From the IMG/VR virus record IMGVR_UViG_3300042147_000037, positions 1 through 28,388 of that record: DNA of 28,388 nucleotides; one strand, given 5' to 3'. Of this stretch, positions 1 to 3,912 are shown one piece after another (within the stretch, counting starts at the first letter, position 1; every line of letters begins with the position of its first letter). The position numbers and the translations under genes are program-made. The stretch comes from a virus. Below the pieces are notes generated by a model. That model ran no database searches and was not told the origin of the DNA. It saw nothing but the letters and a program-made list of their open reading frames with translations.

Positions 1-35
1 AACCCATACCCCGTGTAGGGGCTGGGTGTGAGGTC
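1..35 (-). terminator. Terminator hairpin after the 75-aa membrane protein gene
   Basis: On the minus strand the segment reads CCCAG-CCCC-TACAC-GGGG-TAT-GGGTT, a stem-loop with CCCC/GGGG and CCC/GGG pairing ending in T residues. It lies just after the TGA at 50-52. The same design recurs at 590-624 and 1761-1793. The T tract is short and the window edge cuts off what follows, so termination strength is uncertain. Confidence 0.6.
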
Positions 36-49
36 TTGTGGCGGATGTG

Positions 50-277
50 TCAGTTCTCGTCTTCGAAGTCCATCGTCTTCGACGCGTCGCGAATGGCCCA
101 CACGGTAGCGGCGACACCACCGGCGACACCGGCAACGAAGCCAGCGACAGTTGCAGCGTTCTTGATTCGATTACGCTTCTGTCGCTTGGCTTCCATTTCG
201 GTGTAGCTCTTAGCGGTGTCCGCCCGGTTGCGCATGATGTTCACGGCGTCGGAAACGGAGGTCTTGATACGGGACAT
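50..277 (-). CDS. Small single-span membrane protein (75 aa), array gene
   Basis: No family is recognised. The protein has a basic N-terminal half (KRQKRNR near residues 31-37), one hydrophobic Ala/Val/Gly-rich span at about residues 41-62 and an acidic tail ending FEDEN. That pattern suggests one membrane helix with the basic N-terminus in the cytoplasm. The ATG at 277 is chosen because the frame upstream of it runs through the promoter-like repeat; a weak GGAA lies 6-8 bases before it in the context GATTGGA, which also precedes the genes starting at 829 and 1708. The gene has its own promoter-like module (292-331) and a hairpin after its stop. Function is unknown; location and topology are inferred from composition only. 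Confidence 0.75.
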   Translation of the reverse strand: MSRIKTSVSDAVNIMRNRADTAKSYTEMEAKRQKRNRIKNAATVAGFVAGVAGGVAATVWAIRDASKTMDFEDEN

Positions 278-290
278 GATAGTTCCAATC

Positions 291-331
291 AGTAGGGGTC
301 TCATTATAACCCTTGTAAAATGTGCGACCCC
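291..331 (-). promoter_or_regulatory. Promoter-like repeat copy 1
   Basis: Minus strand reads TCGCACA-TTTTACA-AGGGT-TATAAT-GAGACCCCTAC. TATAAT is an exact -10 match (303-308 on the plus strand). No consensus -35 lies 16-18 bp upstream. The module sits about 15-25 bases upstream of the ATG at 277. It is flanked by an inverted repeat AGGGGTC/GACCCCT. Confidence 0.7.
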
Positions 332-337
332 TGGGAA

Positions 338-559
338 CTACTTCTTGCGAGCAGTCCTCTTGGGAGGAGACTTGTACTCGTCATGAAGAATGGCCTCGGC
401 CGTGATTCCTTCGGAACTGCCCAACCATCTGCTGACGATAACGATGCGGTGGGCTTCCAGAATCTTACGAAGATCTTCGCTGTCCAAGTCGGTGGTGACC
501 GGGACCTGGACATCTACGAGCGGATAACCCTCGTCTCGACGAATGATCTTGATCTTCAA
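338..559 (-). CDS. Hypothetical protein (73 aa), array gene
   Basis: No family is recognised. It is a small, mixed-charge, probably soluble protein with a Lys/Arg-rich C-terminus (PPKRTARKK). The likely start is TTG at 559, eight bases after AAGGA; there is no ATG in frame near it. Unlike most neighbours it lacks the TTTTACA/TATAAT module. A weaker CATATTCT box lies between the upstream hairpin (590-624) and the start, so it may use a different promoter or read-through. Promoter copy 1 begins right after its stop. Function unknown. Confidence 0.6.
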   Translation of the reverse strand: MKIKIIRRDEGYPLVDVQVPVTTDLDSEDLRKILEAHRIVIVSRWLGSSEGITAEAILHDEYKSPPKRTARKK

Positions 560-589
560 CGCTCGATCCTTACCTGAGAATATGGGCGA

Positions 590-624
590 AACCCATACCC
601 CGTGTAGGGGCTGGGTGTGAGGTC
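590..624 (-). terminator. Terminator hairpin after the 68-aa membrane protein gene
   Basis: Minus strand CCCAG-CCCC-TACAC-GGGG-TAT-GGGTTTCG forms a stem-loop overlapping the stop of the gene ending at 623. It is nearly identical in sequence to the hairpin at 1-35. Confidence 0.65.
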
Positions 625-829
625 AGTTCTCTTCGTTGAGCTCGTCCATGTGGTAGTACTCGTCGGAAAGGCCCTTCTCCTCCAGGAACGCGTTGAGAGA
701 GCGGATTCCGATCTGCTGGACGACTGCGAGCGTCGTGGCGACGACGGCAACAGTGCCCAGGATCTTGGTCCGGTTCTCGACAACCTTGTTCTTGGCGGAG
801 ACGGCTTTGCTCTTGATGTTCTGCATCAT
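623..829 (-). CDS. Small single-span membrane protein (68 aa), array gene
   Basis: No family is recognised. The first 20 residues are basic (KSK, KNK, NRTK), followed by a hydrophobic span at about residues 22-41 and an acidic C-terminus (MDELNEEN). This is the same plan as the proteins at 50-277, 1472-1708, 2122-2373 and 2474-2779, although the sequences do not look alike. ATG at 829 is preferred because GATTGGA lies about 8 bases upstream, as in two neighbouring genes; a TTG at 841 in the same frame is the alternative. It has its own promoter-like module (848-884) and a terminator hairpin after its stop. Confidence 0.7.
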   Translation of the reverse strand: MMQNIKSKAVSAKNKVVENRTKILGTVAVVATTLAVVQQIGIRSLNAFLEEKGLSDEYYHMDELNEEN

Positions 830-847
830 GGTGATGTCCAATCGATA

Positions 848-884
848 GTAGGGGTCTCGTTATACCCCTTGTAAAATCTGCGAC
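848..884 (-). promoter_or_regulatory. Promoter-like repeat copy 2
   Basis: Minus strand GGTCGCAGA-TTTTACA-AGGGG-TATAAC-GAGACCCCTAC. The -10 is one base off TATAAT (859-864 on the plus strand). It begins directly after the stop codon of the 35-aa ORF at 886-993 and precedes the gene starting at 829. Confidence 0.65.
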
Positions 885-885
885 C

Positions 886-993
886 CTAGGGCGATTCCTT
901 TAAGAACCACGCGAGAATGAAGAGGGAAAGGGCCAGACCCATTTCGTCCCCGATCATCGCCAGAAAACCCAGAACGACAAAGAAGCGGCTCAT
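886..993 (-). CDS. Very small hydrophobic protein (35 aa)
   Basis: A 35-codon frame starts with ATG at 993, overlapping the TGA of the upstream gene (990-1181) as ATGA, and ends with TAG at 886-888 just before promoter copy 2. It would begin MSRFFVVLGFLAMIGDE and continue with a second hydrophobic stretch at residues 19-31, ending KESP. The overlap suggests translational coupling with the two-span membrane protein upstream, so the pair may act together in the membrane. No homologue is recognised and the size makes chance possible, but coupling, hydrophobic composition and exact fit between neighbours support it. Confidence 0.55.
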   Translation of the reverse strand: MSRFFVVLGFLAMIGDEMGLALSLFILAWFLKESP

Positions 994-1181
994 TCGTCCT
1001 CCTCCAGAAATCCATCGATTCTGGTGATCAGAATCAGGAAGATCGTGTAGAACAGCGTGAATATGAGCATCAGTGCGATCATGAACACGAAGAGGTTTCC
1101 CGGAGCCATGTAACCCATGACCCAGCTCGCCAGGATCGCACTACAGCCGATCATCCATGCGTGAAACAGAAAGTTTTCCAC
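990..1181 (-). CDS. Two-span membrane protein (63 aa)
   Basis: The protein is almost entirely hydrophobic, with likely membrane helices at about residues 4-26 and 29-53 and an acidic end (GFLEEDE). The start is GTG at 1181 with GGAAGGAAAA just upstream. It follows the gene at 1206-1415 after 24 bases and overlaps the next small ORF by four bases, so 1415-886 looks like a three-gene unit. Size and two-helix hairpin resemble a class of small phage membrane proteins including holins and superinfection-exclusion proteins, but nothing specific supports either role. Confidence 0.7.
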   Translation of the reverse strand: MENFLFHAWMIGCSAILASWVMGYMAPGNLFVFMIALMLIFTLFYTIFLILITRIDGFLEEDE

Positions 1182-1205
1182 GATTTTCCTTCCGGGGGAA
1201 TTTTA

Positions 1206-1415
1206 CTAAAGCTTATTGGGCTTCATATACCAGAACACAGTAATTGAATGGTTCGGATCGATCCCGTTCTCCCTGCAAACGTAATTCAGACGATCCAGGT
1301 AAGCGTCATACTCGTAACCTTTCCATTCGAGTTCTCCGGAAAGTGTTACCTGTCTATTCAGAAGAGTGCTTCGAACACTGATCATGAAGAAGTATTGCTT
1401 TTTACGACGGAACAT
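1206..1415 (-). CDS. Hypothetical protein (69 aa)
   Basis: No named family is recognised. The N-terminus is basic (MFRRKKQYFF), followed by a soluble alternating pattern rich in Tyr and Trp, suggesting a small beta-containing fold. The ATG at 1415 follows AGGAG at about six bases. It is preceded by the terminator hairpin at 1438-1467 and by GTCAAAAT, an octamer that also lies immediately before the adaptor and portal genes. No TTTTACA/TATAAT module is present here, so this gene is regulated differently from its array neighbours. Confidence 0.65.
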   Translation of the reverse strand: MFRRKKQYFFMISVRSTLLNRQVTLSGELEWKGYEYDAYLDRLNYVCRENGIDPNHSITVFWYMKPNKL

Positions 1416-1437
1416 TAGAAACTCCTACTATTTTGAC

Positions 1438-1467
1438 GAAACCCATACCCCTTGCGGGGCGGGTTTG
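1438..1467 (-). terminator. Strong terminator hairpin after the 78-aa membrane protein gene
   Basis: Minus strand AAACCC-G-CCCC-GCAA-GGGG-TAT-GGGTTT: two stacked stems (AAACCC/GGGTTT and CCCC/GGGG) around a GCAA tetraloop. It starts a few bases after the TAA at 1472-1474. Compared with the 590-624 copy the loop changed while the paired blocks stayed intact. Confidence 0.75.
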
Positions 1468-1471
1468 GAGT

Positions 1472-1708
1472 TTACTTGTCGTCTCCGCTCTTGGTCTTCT
1501 TGACGATTACCTGGCTCGCGGTGTCGATGGCCTTTATGGTCGCATAGACTCCGACCACGGTAAGGGCGGCGAACTTCACAACGTCCTTGCCTCGCTCGGC
1601 GATGAGCTTGACAGTGTCGGGGTGAAGGATCTTGTCCTCGGTGGTGGGAGAGTCTTCGTTCTTCTTGGGCTTGACGAACCGGATTCGGGCTTCGCGGTTG
1701 TTGAACAC
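1472..1708 (-). CDS. Small single-span membrane protein (78 aa), array gene
   Basis: No family is recognised. A charged N-terminal half (residues 1-42) is followed by one hydrophobic span at about 44-65 and a basic tail (VKKTKSGDDK). GTG at 1708 is chosen because the same frame upstream is a translation of the promoter-like repeat, and GATTGGAA lies 6-8 bases before the GTG, the same context as the starts at 277 and 829. A TTG at 1720 is possible. It is flanked by its own promoter-like module and terminator hairpin, making it one complete cassette. Confidence 0.65.
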   Translation of the reverse strand: MFNNREARIRFVKPKKNEDSPTTEDKILHPDTVKLIAERGKDVVKFAALTVVGVYATIKAIDTASQVIVKKTKSGDDK

Positions 1709-1724
1709 GGCGGTTTCCAATCTA

Positions 1725-1760
1725 GTAGGGGTCTCATTATAGGCCGTGTAAAACGTGCGA
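1725..1760 (-). promoter_or_regulatory. Promoter-like repeat copy 3
   Basis: Minus strand TCGCACG-TTTTACA-CGGCC-TATAAT-GAGACCCCTAC, with TATAAT at 1736-1741. This is the commonest form and is identical over this span to copy 4. It abuts the terminator hairpin of the upstream gene with no spacer. Confidence 0.75.
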
Positions 1761-1793
1761 AACCCATACCCCATGTAGGGGCTGGGCTTGAGA
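1761..1793 (-). terminator. Terminator hairpin after the 69-aa gene
   Basis: Minus strand CCCAG-CCCC-TACAT-GGGG-TAT-GGGTTTCG, the same design as 590-624 with one loop base changed. It runs straight into promoter copy 3, so one transcript ends exactly where the next promoter begins. Confidence 0.65.
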
Positions 1794-2003
1794 TCAGCTT
1801 CCGATGTAGAGGATCTTGACGATGGCCATGTACTCCGGGTATTCCGAGCTGGTCTTGAGTTCTTTCGCGGAGATGAACTTGGCAGGCTTGCCGACTCCGT
1901 TGTAGACGTAGAAAATCTCTTCTTCGGGGAGTTCGGGACGGATGCCTTCGTTCAGCTTCTCGATGATGTCGAGGGTGGCGGGAATAACGGGGATGATGTT
2001 CAT
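1794..2003 (-). CDS. Hypothetical soluble protein (69 aa), array gene
   Basis: No family is recognised. Unlike most array genes this product has no clear membrane span. It begins MNIIPVIPATLDIIEKLNEG and contains an acidic segment (ELPEEEIFYVY). Two adjacent ATG codons occur at 2006 and 2003; 2003 gives the better six-base spacing from AAAGGA. It has its own promoter-like module (2017-2052) and hairpin (1761-1793). Function unknown. Confidence 0.65.
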   Translation of the reverse strand: MNIIPVIPATLDIIEKLNEGIRPELPEEEIFYVYNGVGKPAKFISAKELKTSSEYPEYMAIVKILYIGS

Positions 2004-2016
2004 CATGATTCCTTTC

Positions 2017-2052
2017 GTAGGGGTCTCATTATAGGCCGTGTAAAACGTGCGA
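2017..2052 (-). promoter_or_regulatory. Promoter-like repeat copy 4
   Basis: Minus strand TCGCACG-TTTTACA-CGGCC-TATAAT-GAGACCCCTAC followed by the ribosome binding site GAAAGGA. TATAAT is at 2028-2033. The leader between the expected transcription start and the ATG would be about 20 bases. Confidence 0.75.
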
Positions 2053-2078
2053 CGCTTAGAGATCACTACCATTTTGGC

Positions 2079-2118
2079 AAAAACGAAAGCCCGTGTGGGG
2101 CCGGGCGATCGCTTTTCG
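2079..2118 (-). terminator. Rho-independent terminator after the 83-aa gene
   Basis: Minus strand GCCCG-GCCCCACA-CGGGC stem-loop, with outer CGAAAAGC/GCTTTCG pairing, followed by TTTCGTTTTTG. It starts four bases after the TAA at 2122-2124. The sequence differs from the CCCCTACACGGGG type, so terminators in the array are alike in position rather than by simple copying. Confidence 0.75.
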
Positions 2119-2121
2119 AGA

Positions 2122-2373
2122 TTACTTCTTGGGGGTGTTTCCGATGTGACGAATGGCGTAGCTCTGTCCGTCGTCGTTGAAGTTGTACACAATGTTCACG
2201 TCGCCGGTTTGCAGCGCTTCGCGGTCATCGGGCGTCAACGTGATGGTGTTCTTCTTGGTCTGGTGAATGACACTGGCGGCGTAGACGGTGGAGATGATTC
2301 CGGAGGCGGCAGCAAACACGGGAGCGTACTTGCGGATCTTCTTCTTGGCGGCTTCGAGCTTTTCCTTGTTCAT
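2122..2373 (-). CDS. Small single-span membrane protein (83 aa), array gene
   Basis: No family is recognised. The Lys-rich N-terminus (residues 1-15) is followed by one hydrophobic span at about 17-37 and a soluble domain of about 45 residues (TLTPDDREAL onwards). The charge pattern suggests N-terminus in the cytoplasm and the soluble part outside. ATG at 2373 has GAAAGGA about nine bases upstream. It is a full cassette with promoter copy 5 and the terminator at 2079-2118. Confidence 0.75.
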   Translation of the reverse strand: MNKEKLEAAKKKIRKYAPVFAAASGIISTVYAASVIHQTKKNTITLTPDDREALQTGDVNIVYNFNDDGQSYAIRHIGNTPKK

Positions 2374-2389
2374 GGGAATGGTTCCTTTC

Positions 2390-2425
2390 GTAGAGGTCTC
2401 ATTATAGGCGTTGTAAAACGTGCGA
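2390..2425 (-). promoter_or_regulatory. Promoter-like repeat copy 5
   Basis: Minus strand TCGCACG-TTTTACA-ACGCC-TATAAT-GAGACCTCTAC followed by GAAAGGA. TATAAT is at 2401-2406. The GAGACC block carries one substitution relative to copies 3 and 4. Confidence 0.75.
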
Positions 2426-2428
2426 AGG

Positions 2429-2470
2429 CAAAAACCATACCCCTTGTATAAACGGGGCAGAGGGTTTTTG
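2429..2470 (-). terminator. Strong terminator hairpin after the 101-aa gene
   Basis: Minus strand AAAAACC-CTCTG-CCCC loop GGGG-TAT-GGTTTTT: AAAAACC/GGTTTTT and CCCC/GGGG stems and a T-rich 3' side. The A-rich/T-rich arms would let it work in both directions. It starts directly after the gene ending at 2474. Confidence 0.8.
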
Positions 2471-2473
2471 AGA

Positions 2474-2779
2474 TCAGTCTTGGAACGGGCTTAGCCTCAT
2501 CTCGAGGCGGCCATCATCGGTTGGGTACGAGATAGTCTTTCCTTCCTTCATGGAATCGATGCATTCGCCGGTGACAGGAATCAGACCTTCAAGATCGTCC
2601 TGACCGTCGACCTTCTTGATGAGGTAGTGTTCCTCAAACAATGAATTGATCGTACGACCGTAATAGATCTTGGCGGTGACTGATGTTACTGCAGCGACGG
2701 CTCCTACAATTCCGATGTAGGCGGGGTAGTTTTTCTCGACGTTCTCTTTGATTTGGCCGATCTTCTTCTTGAGGTTCAT
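2474..2779 (-). CDS. Small single-span membrane protein (101 aa), array gene
   Basis: No family is recognised. Its N-terminus is MNLKKKIGQIKENVEKNY, then a hydrophobic span lies at about residues 18-38, then a soluble domain of some 60 residues rich in Asp/Glu/Gly (DGQDDLEGLI, YPTDDGRLEM). The plan matches the 2122-2373 product: basic tail, one helix, acidic soluble domain probably outside. ATG at 2779 follows AAAGGAAACCG. It has its own promoter-like module and terminator. Confidence 0.75.
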   Translation of the reverse strand: MNLKKKIGQIKENVEKNYPAYIGIVGAVAAVTSVTAKIYYGRTINSLFEEHYLIKKVDGQDDLEGLIPVTGECIDSMKEGKTISYPTDDGRLEMRLSPFQD

Positions 2780-2791
2780 CGGTTTCCTTTC

Positions 2792-2827
2792 GCAGGGGTC
2801 TCAATATAGGCCGTGTAAATCCTGCGA
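2792..2827 (-). promoter_or_regulatory. Promoter-like repeat copy 6
   Basis: Minus strand TCGCAGG-ATTTACA-CGGCC-TATATT-GAGACCCCTGC followed by GAAAGGA. It is the most diverged copy (TATATT for TATAAT at 2803-2808, ATTTACA for TTTTACA), yet spacing and GAGACCCC are kept. Confidence 0.65.
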
Positions 2828-2831
2828 AAGG

Positions 2832-2875
2832 CAAAAAACAAACGGCGTGCAAACCTTGCTAGGGTCTACACGCCG
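2832..2875 (-). terminator. Rho-independent terminator after the 99-aa gene
   Basis: Minus strand CGGCGTG stem pairing with CACGCCG around a 19-base loop, then TTTGTTTTTTGCC. This is a classic GC stem plus T tract, 25 bases after the stop at 2900 and just before promoter copy 6. Confidence 0.8.
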
Positions 2876-2899
2876 CTGTTCATGGTCCTTCGGGGATTA

Positions 2900-3199
2900 T
2901 CAGGATGAGTTCTTCGTCTTGAAGATGAAACCGAGAGCCTTCGACGTCAGTGCGTGCGTCCGCTCGAAGCTGATGATCATCAGAATCCCGGTGAGGTTCA
3001 CGCCCGCGGCGAACAGTGCTTCCTTGCTGATGGGCTTCTGGCTGGTTTCAGCCTGAATCTTCTTCAGCTTGGTGTACTGGTCGACCATGTGGGCGTAACC
3101 CTCGGTCTCGGGGTTCGCGTTGATGATAGCCTTGTGCAGACGCTCGATGATGTCATCGAGTTCGGTCGGTTCCTTGGTCTTCTTGAACGGGTTGTTCAT
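2900..3199 (-). CDS. Small membrane-associated protein (99 aa), array gene
   Basis: It has a charged helical N-terminal region (residues 10-50, with DDIIERLHKAI and YTKLKKIQ) and one hydrophobic span at about 61-79 (ALFAAGVNLTGILMIISF), ending LGFIFKTKNSS. I recall similar short membrane proteins in actinobacterial phage genomes but can give no function. ATG at 3199 lies about nine bases after GAAAGGA. It is the first cassette of the array in transcription order. Confidence 0.75.
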   Translation of the reverse strand: MNNPFKKTKEPTELDDIIERLHKAIINANPETEGYAHMVDQYTKLKKIQAETSQKPISKEALFAAGVNLTGILMIISFERTHALTSKALGFIFKTKNSS

Positions 3200-3215
3200 C
3201 GTGAACAGTCCTTTC

Positions 3216-3251
3216 GTAGGGGTCTCATTATAGCCGCTGTAAAATATGCGA
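3216..3251 (-). promoter_or_regulatory. Promoter-like repeat copy 7 (first in transcription order)
   Basis: Minus strand TCGCATA-TTTTACA-GCGGC-TATAAT-GAGACCCCTAC, with TATAAT at 3227-3232. It starts 15 bases after the stop of the 3267-3518 gene. No terminator is visible between them, so late transcripts could run into the array. AGGGGTC and GACCCCT form an inverted repeat around it. Confidence 0.75.
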
Positions 3252-3266
3252 CCCCTGCTGAGGATG

Positions 3267-3519: not shown

Positions 3520-3912
3520 TCAGTTGTTCTCCACTTCGTCTACCACGCCGAAAGTGACCTGATCCATGGAGGCGATCACCTGAGGATGTGTATTGAGCCG
3601 AGTCACCATGCGCTTCGTGGTCTCGTCCCCGTCCACTGCCTCGAAAGCGACTTCACCCACATACTGTGGCTTGGCATTACTCCGGTTATAGGACCGCGTA
3701 GATATCCCGAGCAGTACACCCAGGAAGGTGTTCACCGCCGCGATCGTACCGATCACTTCTTCGGCGTTCGGGAGATGCCAGATCTGGGCAAGGGAGAAAT
3801 ATAGCGCTCCCATAGCCGGAAGTATCAACGCCGCCGACTGCTTGATGACGGCATAGGTCCTGTCACCGAGAAGTGGTGTTCTCGCTTTGGCGTGGTGGGA
3901 TGACTCGGACAT
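3520..3912 (-). CDS. Holin, phage r1t type (130 aa)
   Basis: Two hydrophobic spans lie at about residues 23-45 and 52-71. The segment LILPAMGALYFSLAQIW followed by EEVIGTIAAVNTFLGVLLGI is typical of r1t-type holins, which form lesions in the cytoplasmic membrane and release the endolysin at lysis. The ATG at 3912 is chosen because it starts the conserved part; an in-frame start at 3951 would deepen the overlap with the upstream gene, which is already 50 bases. The C-terminus (about 75-130) is soluble and longer than in minimal holins. The endolysin is 23 kb upstream in this genome, so the lysis genes are split. Confidence 0.8.
   Translation of the reverse strand: MSESSHHAKARTPLLGDRTYAVIKQSAALILPAMGALYFSLAQIWHLPNAEEVIGTIAAVNTFLGVLLGISTRSYNRSNAKPQYVGEVAFEAVDGDETTKRMVTRLNTHPQVIASMDQVTFGVVDEVENN

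Follow-up and report, generated by a model that had tools for sequence, protein, structure and literature searches.

What reads a promoter-like module that stands in front of seven short genes is the question raised by a 28,388 nt stretch of viral DNA (positions 1 to 28,388 of IMG/VR record IMGVR_UViG_3300042147_000037; hereafter the window). A sequence-only reading of the window had proposed separate promoters for these small genes under a single regulator, and this proposal is supported and strengthened by the comparison with related phages described here. Judged from its sequence context, the module is a transcription promoter shared by a large phage lineage. The enzyme that it serves is, with a probability of roughly three in four (0.76), a single-chain, QDE-1-like (two-barrel) RNA polymerase that the lineage itself encodes.

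TCGCA-N2-WWTTACA-N5-TATAATGAGA occurs seven times in the window, each time on the minus strand and at the place where the sequence-only reading had put it. A chance origin is ruled out by 100 dinucleotide-preserving shuffles of the window, which gave zero matches (mean 0.00). That the module is absent from the rest of the window was also borne out, as neither a search allowing up to three mismatches nor a matrix scan found an eighth copy there. Compared with TTTTACA-N5-TATAATGAGACC, five sites show no mismatch, one has a single mismatch (TATAAC, 853-876) and one has two (ATTTACA and TATATT, 2797-2820). One short open reading frame (ORF) follows each module (7/7), with 21-29 nt between the putative +1 and the likely start codon; taking the most likely starts, these genes span 68-101 codons. 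The pairing of one module with one short gene thus stands, but three small neighbouring ORFs (338-559, 990-1181 and 1206-1415) have no copy of their own and the gene at 1472-1708 starts with GTG.

The best DNA matches of the window are Streptomyces phages, for example Scarif and Rima, and it belongs to a large lineage. The motif is found on the coding strand in phages of Streptomyces, Gordonia, Rhodococcus, Arthrobacter and Microbacterium, in oral phages and in the Lactococcus phages P078, P092, P118 and P162. A single genome can hold as many as about 30 copies (Qui), in arrays that lie mainly between the lysis and replication blocks. A matrix was derived from 510 non-redundant copies selected by ACA/ACT-N5-TAT[AT][AG]TGA, so that those letters are conserved because of how the copies were chosen; for the TCGC box the requirement was loose (CGC, CGT or CGA within 18 nt), and it is nevertheless 94-99% conserved, while the Lactococcus copies are without it. 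Scanning 20 phage sequences with this matrix (about 1.1 Mb, from phages of the five genera above, Curtobacterium and Lactococcus as well as oral phages, many of which had also supplied copies) yielded 184 sense matches, none antisense and none in reversed sequences. Numbered with the G after TATAAT as +1, TCGC(A) occupies -25 to -21, WWTTACA -18 to -12, TATA(A/G)T -6 to -1 and GAGA +1 to +4. The 5 bp spacer is G+C-rich, and the three upstream boxes are spaced by about one helical turn. This core is common to phage genomes of 34-61% G+C, from Lactococcus to Streptomyces, which makes it unlikely that the host alone is the recogniser. A full-text literature search for TATAATGAGA together with 'phage' returned no relevant paper, an earlier mention in the ReqiPepy6 genome paper (PMC3020559) being possible.

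Among 703 unique copies, 542 are followed by a ribosome-binding site and a start codon, the latter in most cases 21-33 nt from +1. Some 150 lack a start codon, and most of these precede structured RNAs that end at T-tracts. The motif also precedes a transfer RNA (tRNA) gene in P078 (RNA-family match, L112:4022-4083), tRNA-Ala in Pepy6 and, as seen by eye, a tRNA-like sequence in CHPC971. Since copies stand before tRNAs and non-coding RNAs (ncRNAs), a translation signal is excluded. Whether all copies in relatives precede gene starts, a check suggested by the sequence-only reading, has a divided answer: the copies keep a fixed register and the sense orientation, but most of the roughly 150 just mentioned precede ncRNAs or tRNAs instead. 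In the regions searched, Rfam returned tRNAs only.

The ncRNAs also indicate where transcription would begin. Their 5' ends (GAGA...) are complementary to the terminator arm before the U-tract, as in GAGAAGG...CCTTCTCTTTTTTT of Shepard. In 103 copies followed by T-tracts, with swapped 5' ends as the control, 9 nt windows show this complementarity only where they start between about -4 or -3 and +7 (z down to -12); windows further upstream, or from +10 onward, lack it. An ungapped test is weaker but clear, with at least 7 of 8 positions paired in 25 copies compared with at most 13 in 200 swaps. Where GAGA varies the opposite arm changes with it (GAAAGGTATTAT with ATAATACCTTTC; GAGGAGA with TCTCCTC). 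This pairing implies that the transcript holds the bases right after TATAAT, and we infer a start at or before the adjoining G, which would be too close for an ordinary sigma-70 -10 box.

The candidate reader is a protein of about 900 amino acids at the right genome end, present in 15 of the 15 lineage genomes first compared and annotated 'RNA-dependent RNA polymerase' in the P078 record and in PHROG 4291. A DFDGD motif is invariant across 43 relatives and helix-turn-helix domains are located at both ends. Sequence searches of the PDB gave no polymerase relative, so fold comparison was needed. The best match of the predicted model (mean pLDDT, the predicted local distance difference test, of 79.9) is QDE-1 (E = 3e-10, Z = 14.6), followed by the phage structures 8f72 (P32 gp64 RNA polymerase) and 8f5m (P74 gp62) and by plant RDR2. 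Cellular largest subunits rank lower and match over residues 415-714; a family missing from the list of fold matches is not thereby excluded as a relative. As modelled, the enzyme is a single-chain, QDE-1-like (two-barrel) polymerase.

Motif and polymerase occur together. In 50,697 phage records the two have identical record counts for Gordonia (55), Streptomyces (54), Siphovirus (12), Rhodococcus (4) and Microbacterium (4). The polymerase is present in more Arthrobacter, Lactococcus and Curtobacterium records than the motif, which has diverged there. Motif matches were found in 27 of 30 polymerase contigs, a few of them single weak matches, and the polymerase in 26 of 30 long motif contigs. 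The other four have a terminase but neither the polymerase nor its neighbouring exonuclease gene (a search that had no positive control) and are therefore probably incomplete. In 257 Gb of bacterial genomes only two motif matches were obtained, which is near chance level, and neither accompanies the polymerase. The most diverged polymerases go with altered motifs: TTTTACA-N5-TATAGTAGAA in Lactococcus CHPC971, ATTACA-N5-TTTAATAGACCC in Curtobacterium Eevee and AAAAACA-N5-TATARTGAGAAC in Microbacterium Damascus. Apart from the Faecalibacterium phage FP_oengus, the motif is thus largely found where the polymerase is and nearly absent elsewhere, with shared ancestry as a possible cause.

In the mechanism that we propose, RNA synthesis by the polymerase would begin on the G that follows TATAAT or immediately before it, with no sigma factor, and the helix-turn-helix domains of the enzyme may read the upstream boxes. 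Each promoter would serve one small gene or one ncRNA, and most of these units would be closed by a hairpin terminator of their own, so that many short units would be controlled alike. Several points weigh against this assignment. In FP_oengus (L304-L306) the polymerase is present (42% identity), yet no motif could be recognised, and a de novo motif search there gave scattered words only, with no promoter anatomy; it is an unexplained exception. The lineage shares a backbone, including the terminase, so that co-occurrence is not independent of ancestry. The window stops short of the genome end at which the polymerase gene of its own phage would presumably lie. The RNA pairing fixes only the latest possible start, which could be further upstream. 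Finally, YonO, a related enzyme, reads late genes as a single operon and not as small single units (PMC5467207).

The same observations bear on other readers of the motif. Host RNA polymerase with its main sigma factor could use TATAAT, which is identical to the bacterial -10 consensus, if a phage activator or sigma appropriator at TCGCA/TTTACA replaced the -35 element, as with MotA/AsiA of T4, and the lineage does have other conserved proteins of unknown function. This we consider unlikely. From a sigma-70 -10 box, transcription begins about 5-9 nt further downstream, whereas the pairing in the ncRNAs requires the transcript to include the bases that follow TATAAT directly; the region some 17 bp upstream, where a -35 element belongs, is low in information and the conserved boxes stand at other distances; and diverged copies abandon the -10 consensus (TTTAATAGA in Eevee). 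TATAAT is very probably no sigma-70 -10 box. The sequence-only reading had compared the module with the start-associated sequences of mycobacteriophages. Such a signal, proposed to work in translation in cluster K and cluster EF phages, would suit the 21-33 nt that separate most copies from start codons, but its conserved part would be expected at the ribosome-binding site and here stops upstream of it, and the copies before ncRNAs and tRNAs have no start codon to serve; the comparison is not supported, and we give this explanation practically no weight. Operator or stoperator sites for a phage repressor, themselves no promoters, would likewise be repeated, directional and intergenic, but a constant spacing to RNA 5' ends and to gene starts, as seen here, is typical of promoters, which leaves them very improbable. 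Two further candidates were rejected. The reverse complement in Rima (GGTCTCACTATAGGG) looks like a T7 promoter, but the 184 matches are sense without exception and the RNAs are found on that side as well; a sigma-54-like -24/-12 promoter has a similar spacing but no further support.

T7-type polymerases use compact promoters that extend into the transcribed region, where the first bases are rich in purines, and that have a TATA box immediately ahead of the start site. The lineage motif has the same layout but a different sequence, and the lineage polymerase is two-barrel and not T7-like. Few promoters are known for the single-chain two-barrel class, whose members are proposed to be similar to the ancestral form of the cellular RNA polymerases (PMC5467207). 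For the distantly related enzymes of Thermus phage P23-45, gp96 (in the virion) and gp64, which are likewise single-chain and two-barrel, promoter motifs have been mapped (PMC10770324). The likeness extends to a conserved phage-specific motif before early genes, tied to the presence of the polymerase across relatives (PMC10770324), and to 8f72 and 8f5m being among the best fold matches of the lineage enzyme. The P23-45 motifs, compared here by description, are one AT-rich and one GC-rich (PMC10770324), whereas ours is one compact three-box motif, mostly before single small genes and ncRNAs and in a different phage lineage. YonO of Bacillus phage SPbeta is also a single-chain DNA-dependent RNA polymerase with DxDGD, and the start mapped for it precedes a gene and an ncRNA (PMC5467207), much like the lineage motif. 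It differs in transcribing late genes as one operon (PMC5467207). Its sequence similarity to the lineage polymerase is marginal: in a profile comparison only the region around DxDGD aligned (E = 0.06, marginal), and YonO belongs to PHROG 8308. Its promoter was left open by Forrest et al. (2017; PMC5467207), and the stretch of the SPbeta late-promoter region that was searched holds no close match to the motif. Start-associated sequences of cluster K and Microbacterium cluster EF phages are likewise short conserved repeats before small genes, but sit at the ribosome-binding site (PMC7302621), whereas the lineage motif lies upstream and also precedes ncRNAs. Relative to the known two-barrel polymerase promoters, the novelty is the unusual breadth and architecture.

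With this motif, culturable phages of Streptomyces, Gordonia, Arthrobacter and Lactococcus offer hundreds of candidate promoters, for which a start site is predicted and whose natural variants are matched to polymerase variants. This makes it possible to test directly how such an enzyme recognises a promoter and whether a sigma-like factor takes part. The motif also marks out a large number of small membrane proteins and ncRNAs, so far unstudied, as one regulon. A tentative extension, which we regard as rather doubtful, is that virions carry the polymerase and inject it, with the result that these membrane proteins and ncRNAs are transcribed at entry without host RNA polymerase. The sole hint is a near-invariant signature, HYG..R.SGRYPWGSG, in a polymerase N-terminus of very low model confidence (residues 13-28 of L141:4001-6694), possibly a targeting or packaging signal. 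If true, the cassettes would form a pre-early host-takeover regulon, with one promoter common to phages of Actinobacteria and Firmicutes.

The features of the window are collected in the table below. The cassette genes lie a few hundred bases past a holin gene (3520-3912, Phage_holin_Dp1), and none of the seven products reaches the Pfam cut-off. Hairpins with short T runs, read from the sequence, separate most cassettes.

Table. Candidate promoters, small genes and terminator-like hairpins in the window; +1 positions are putative
Feature	Position	Strand	Details
Promoter 1	302-327	-	TCGCA 323-327, TTTTACA 314-320, TATAAT 303-308, +1 302
Gene after promoter 1	50-277	-	75 aa, hydrophobic stretch
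Hairpin after gene 50-277	1-35	-	CCCAGCCCC / GGGGTATGGG
Promoter 2	858-883	-	TCGCA 879-883, TTTTACA 870-876, TATAAC 859-864, +1 858
Gene after promoter 2	623-829	-	68 aa, hydrophobic stretch
Hairpin after gene 623-829	590-624	-	
Promoter 3	1735-1760	-	TCGCA 1756-1760, TTTTACA 1747-1753, TATAAT 1736-1741, +1 1735
Gene after promoter 3	1472-1708	-	78 aa, GTG start
Hairpin after gene 1472-1708	1437-1466	-	
Promoter 4	2027-2052	-	TCGCA 2048-2052, TTTTACA 2039-2045, TATAAT 2028-2033, +1 2027
Gene after promoter 4	1794-2006	-	70 aa
Hairpin after gene 1794-2006	1761-1795	-	T run abuts TCGCA of promoter 3
Promoter 5	2400-2425	-	TCGCA 2421-2425, TTTTACA 2412-2418, TATAAT 2401-2406, +1 2400
Gene after promoter 5	2122-2373	-	83 aa
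Hairpin after gene 2122-2373	2075-2110	-	
Promoter 6	2802-2827	-	TCGCA 2823-2827, ATTTACA 2814-2820, TATATT 2803-2808, +1 2802
Gene after promoter 6	2474-2779	-	101 aa
Hairpin after gene 2474-2779	2430-2470	-	
Promoter 7 (first in transcription order)	3226-3251	-	TCGCA 3247-3251, TTTTACA 3238-3244, TATAAT 3227-3232, +1 3226
Gene after promoter 7	2900-3199	-	99 aa
Hairpin after gene 2900-3199	2836-2876	-	CGGCGTGTAGACC / GTTTGCACGCCG, then T run

The initial transcribed sequence seems to depend on the class of target. GAGACC is the commonest overall and is typical of protein genes, while GAGAAG, GAGAGG and GAGAGA are typical of ncRNAs. One conserved ncRNA family behind this promoter has the core GAGACACGAAnGTGTAGG... 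and a later hairpin with TTTTCGnTGGG. It is seen in Secretariat (L097 from 11541, record 31519), Pepy6 (L103 from 1325, record 41303) and Qui (L119 from 8015) and at the IMG/VR loci L224, L225, L253, L277, L283, L286, L292 and L294. RNAalifold gives 22 pairs, 15 of them changed on both sides, and the regions searched contain no Rfam match for this family. A second family behind the same promoter, GNAACRCGAATGTTG ... GAAGTTCGTNGCTCCC, is found in the Arthrobacter phages Shepard (L106 from 11391), Michelle (L109 from 8484) and Darby (L127 from 10347). Directly downstream of a promoter copy in Darby is a short tRNA-like RNA (L127:10231-10310, record 30231) with a GGTTCGAATCC arm and a GGTAAGG/CCTTGCC stem, which ARAGORN does not call as a tRNA.

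Upstream of some promoters, GGGGTC or GTAGGGGTCTC is present (window 3226-3257, 858-889 and 302-333; LibertyBell 25240; Bing 26649). This element is the reverse complement of the leader GAGACCCCTAC, so that a read-through RNA could fold over promoter and leader.

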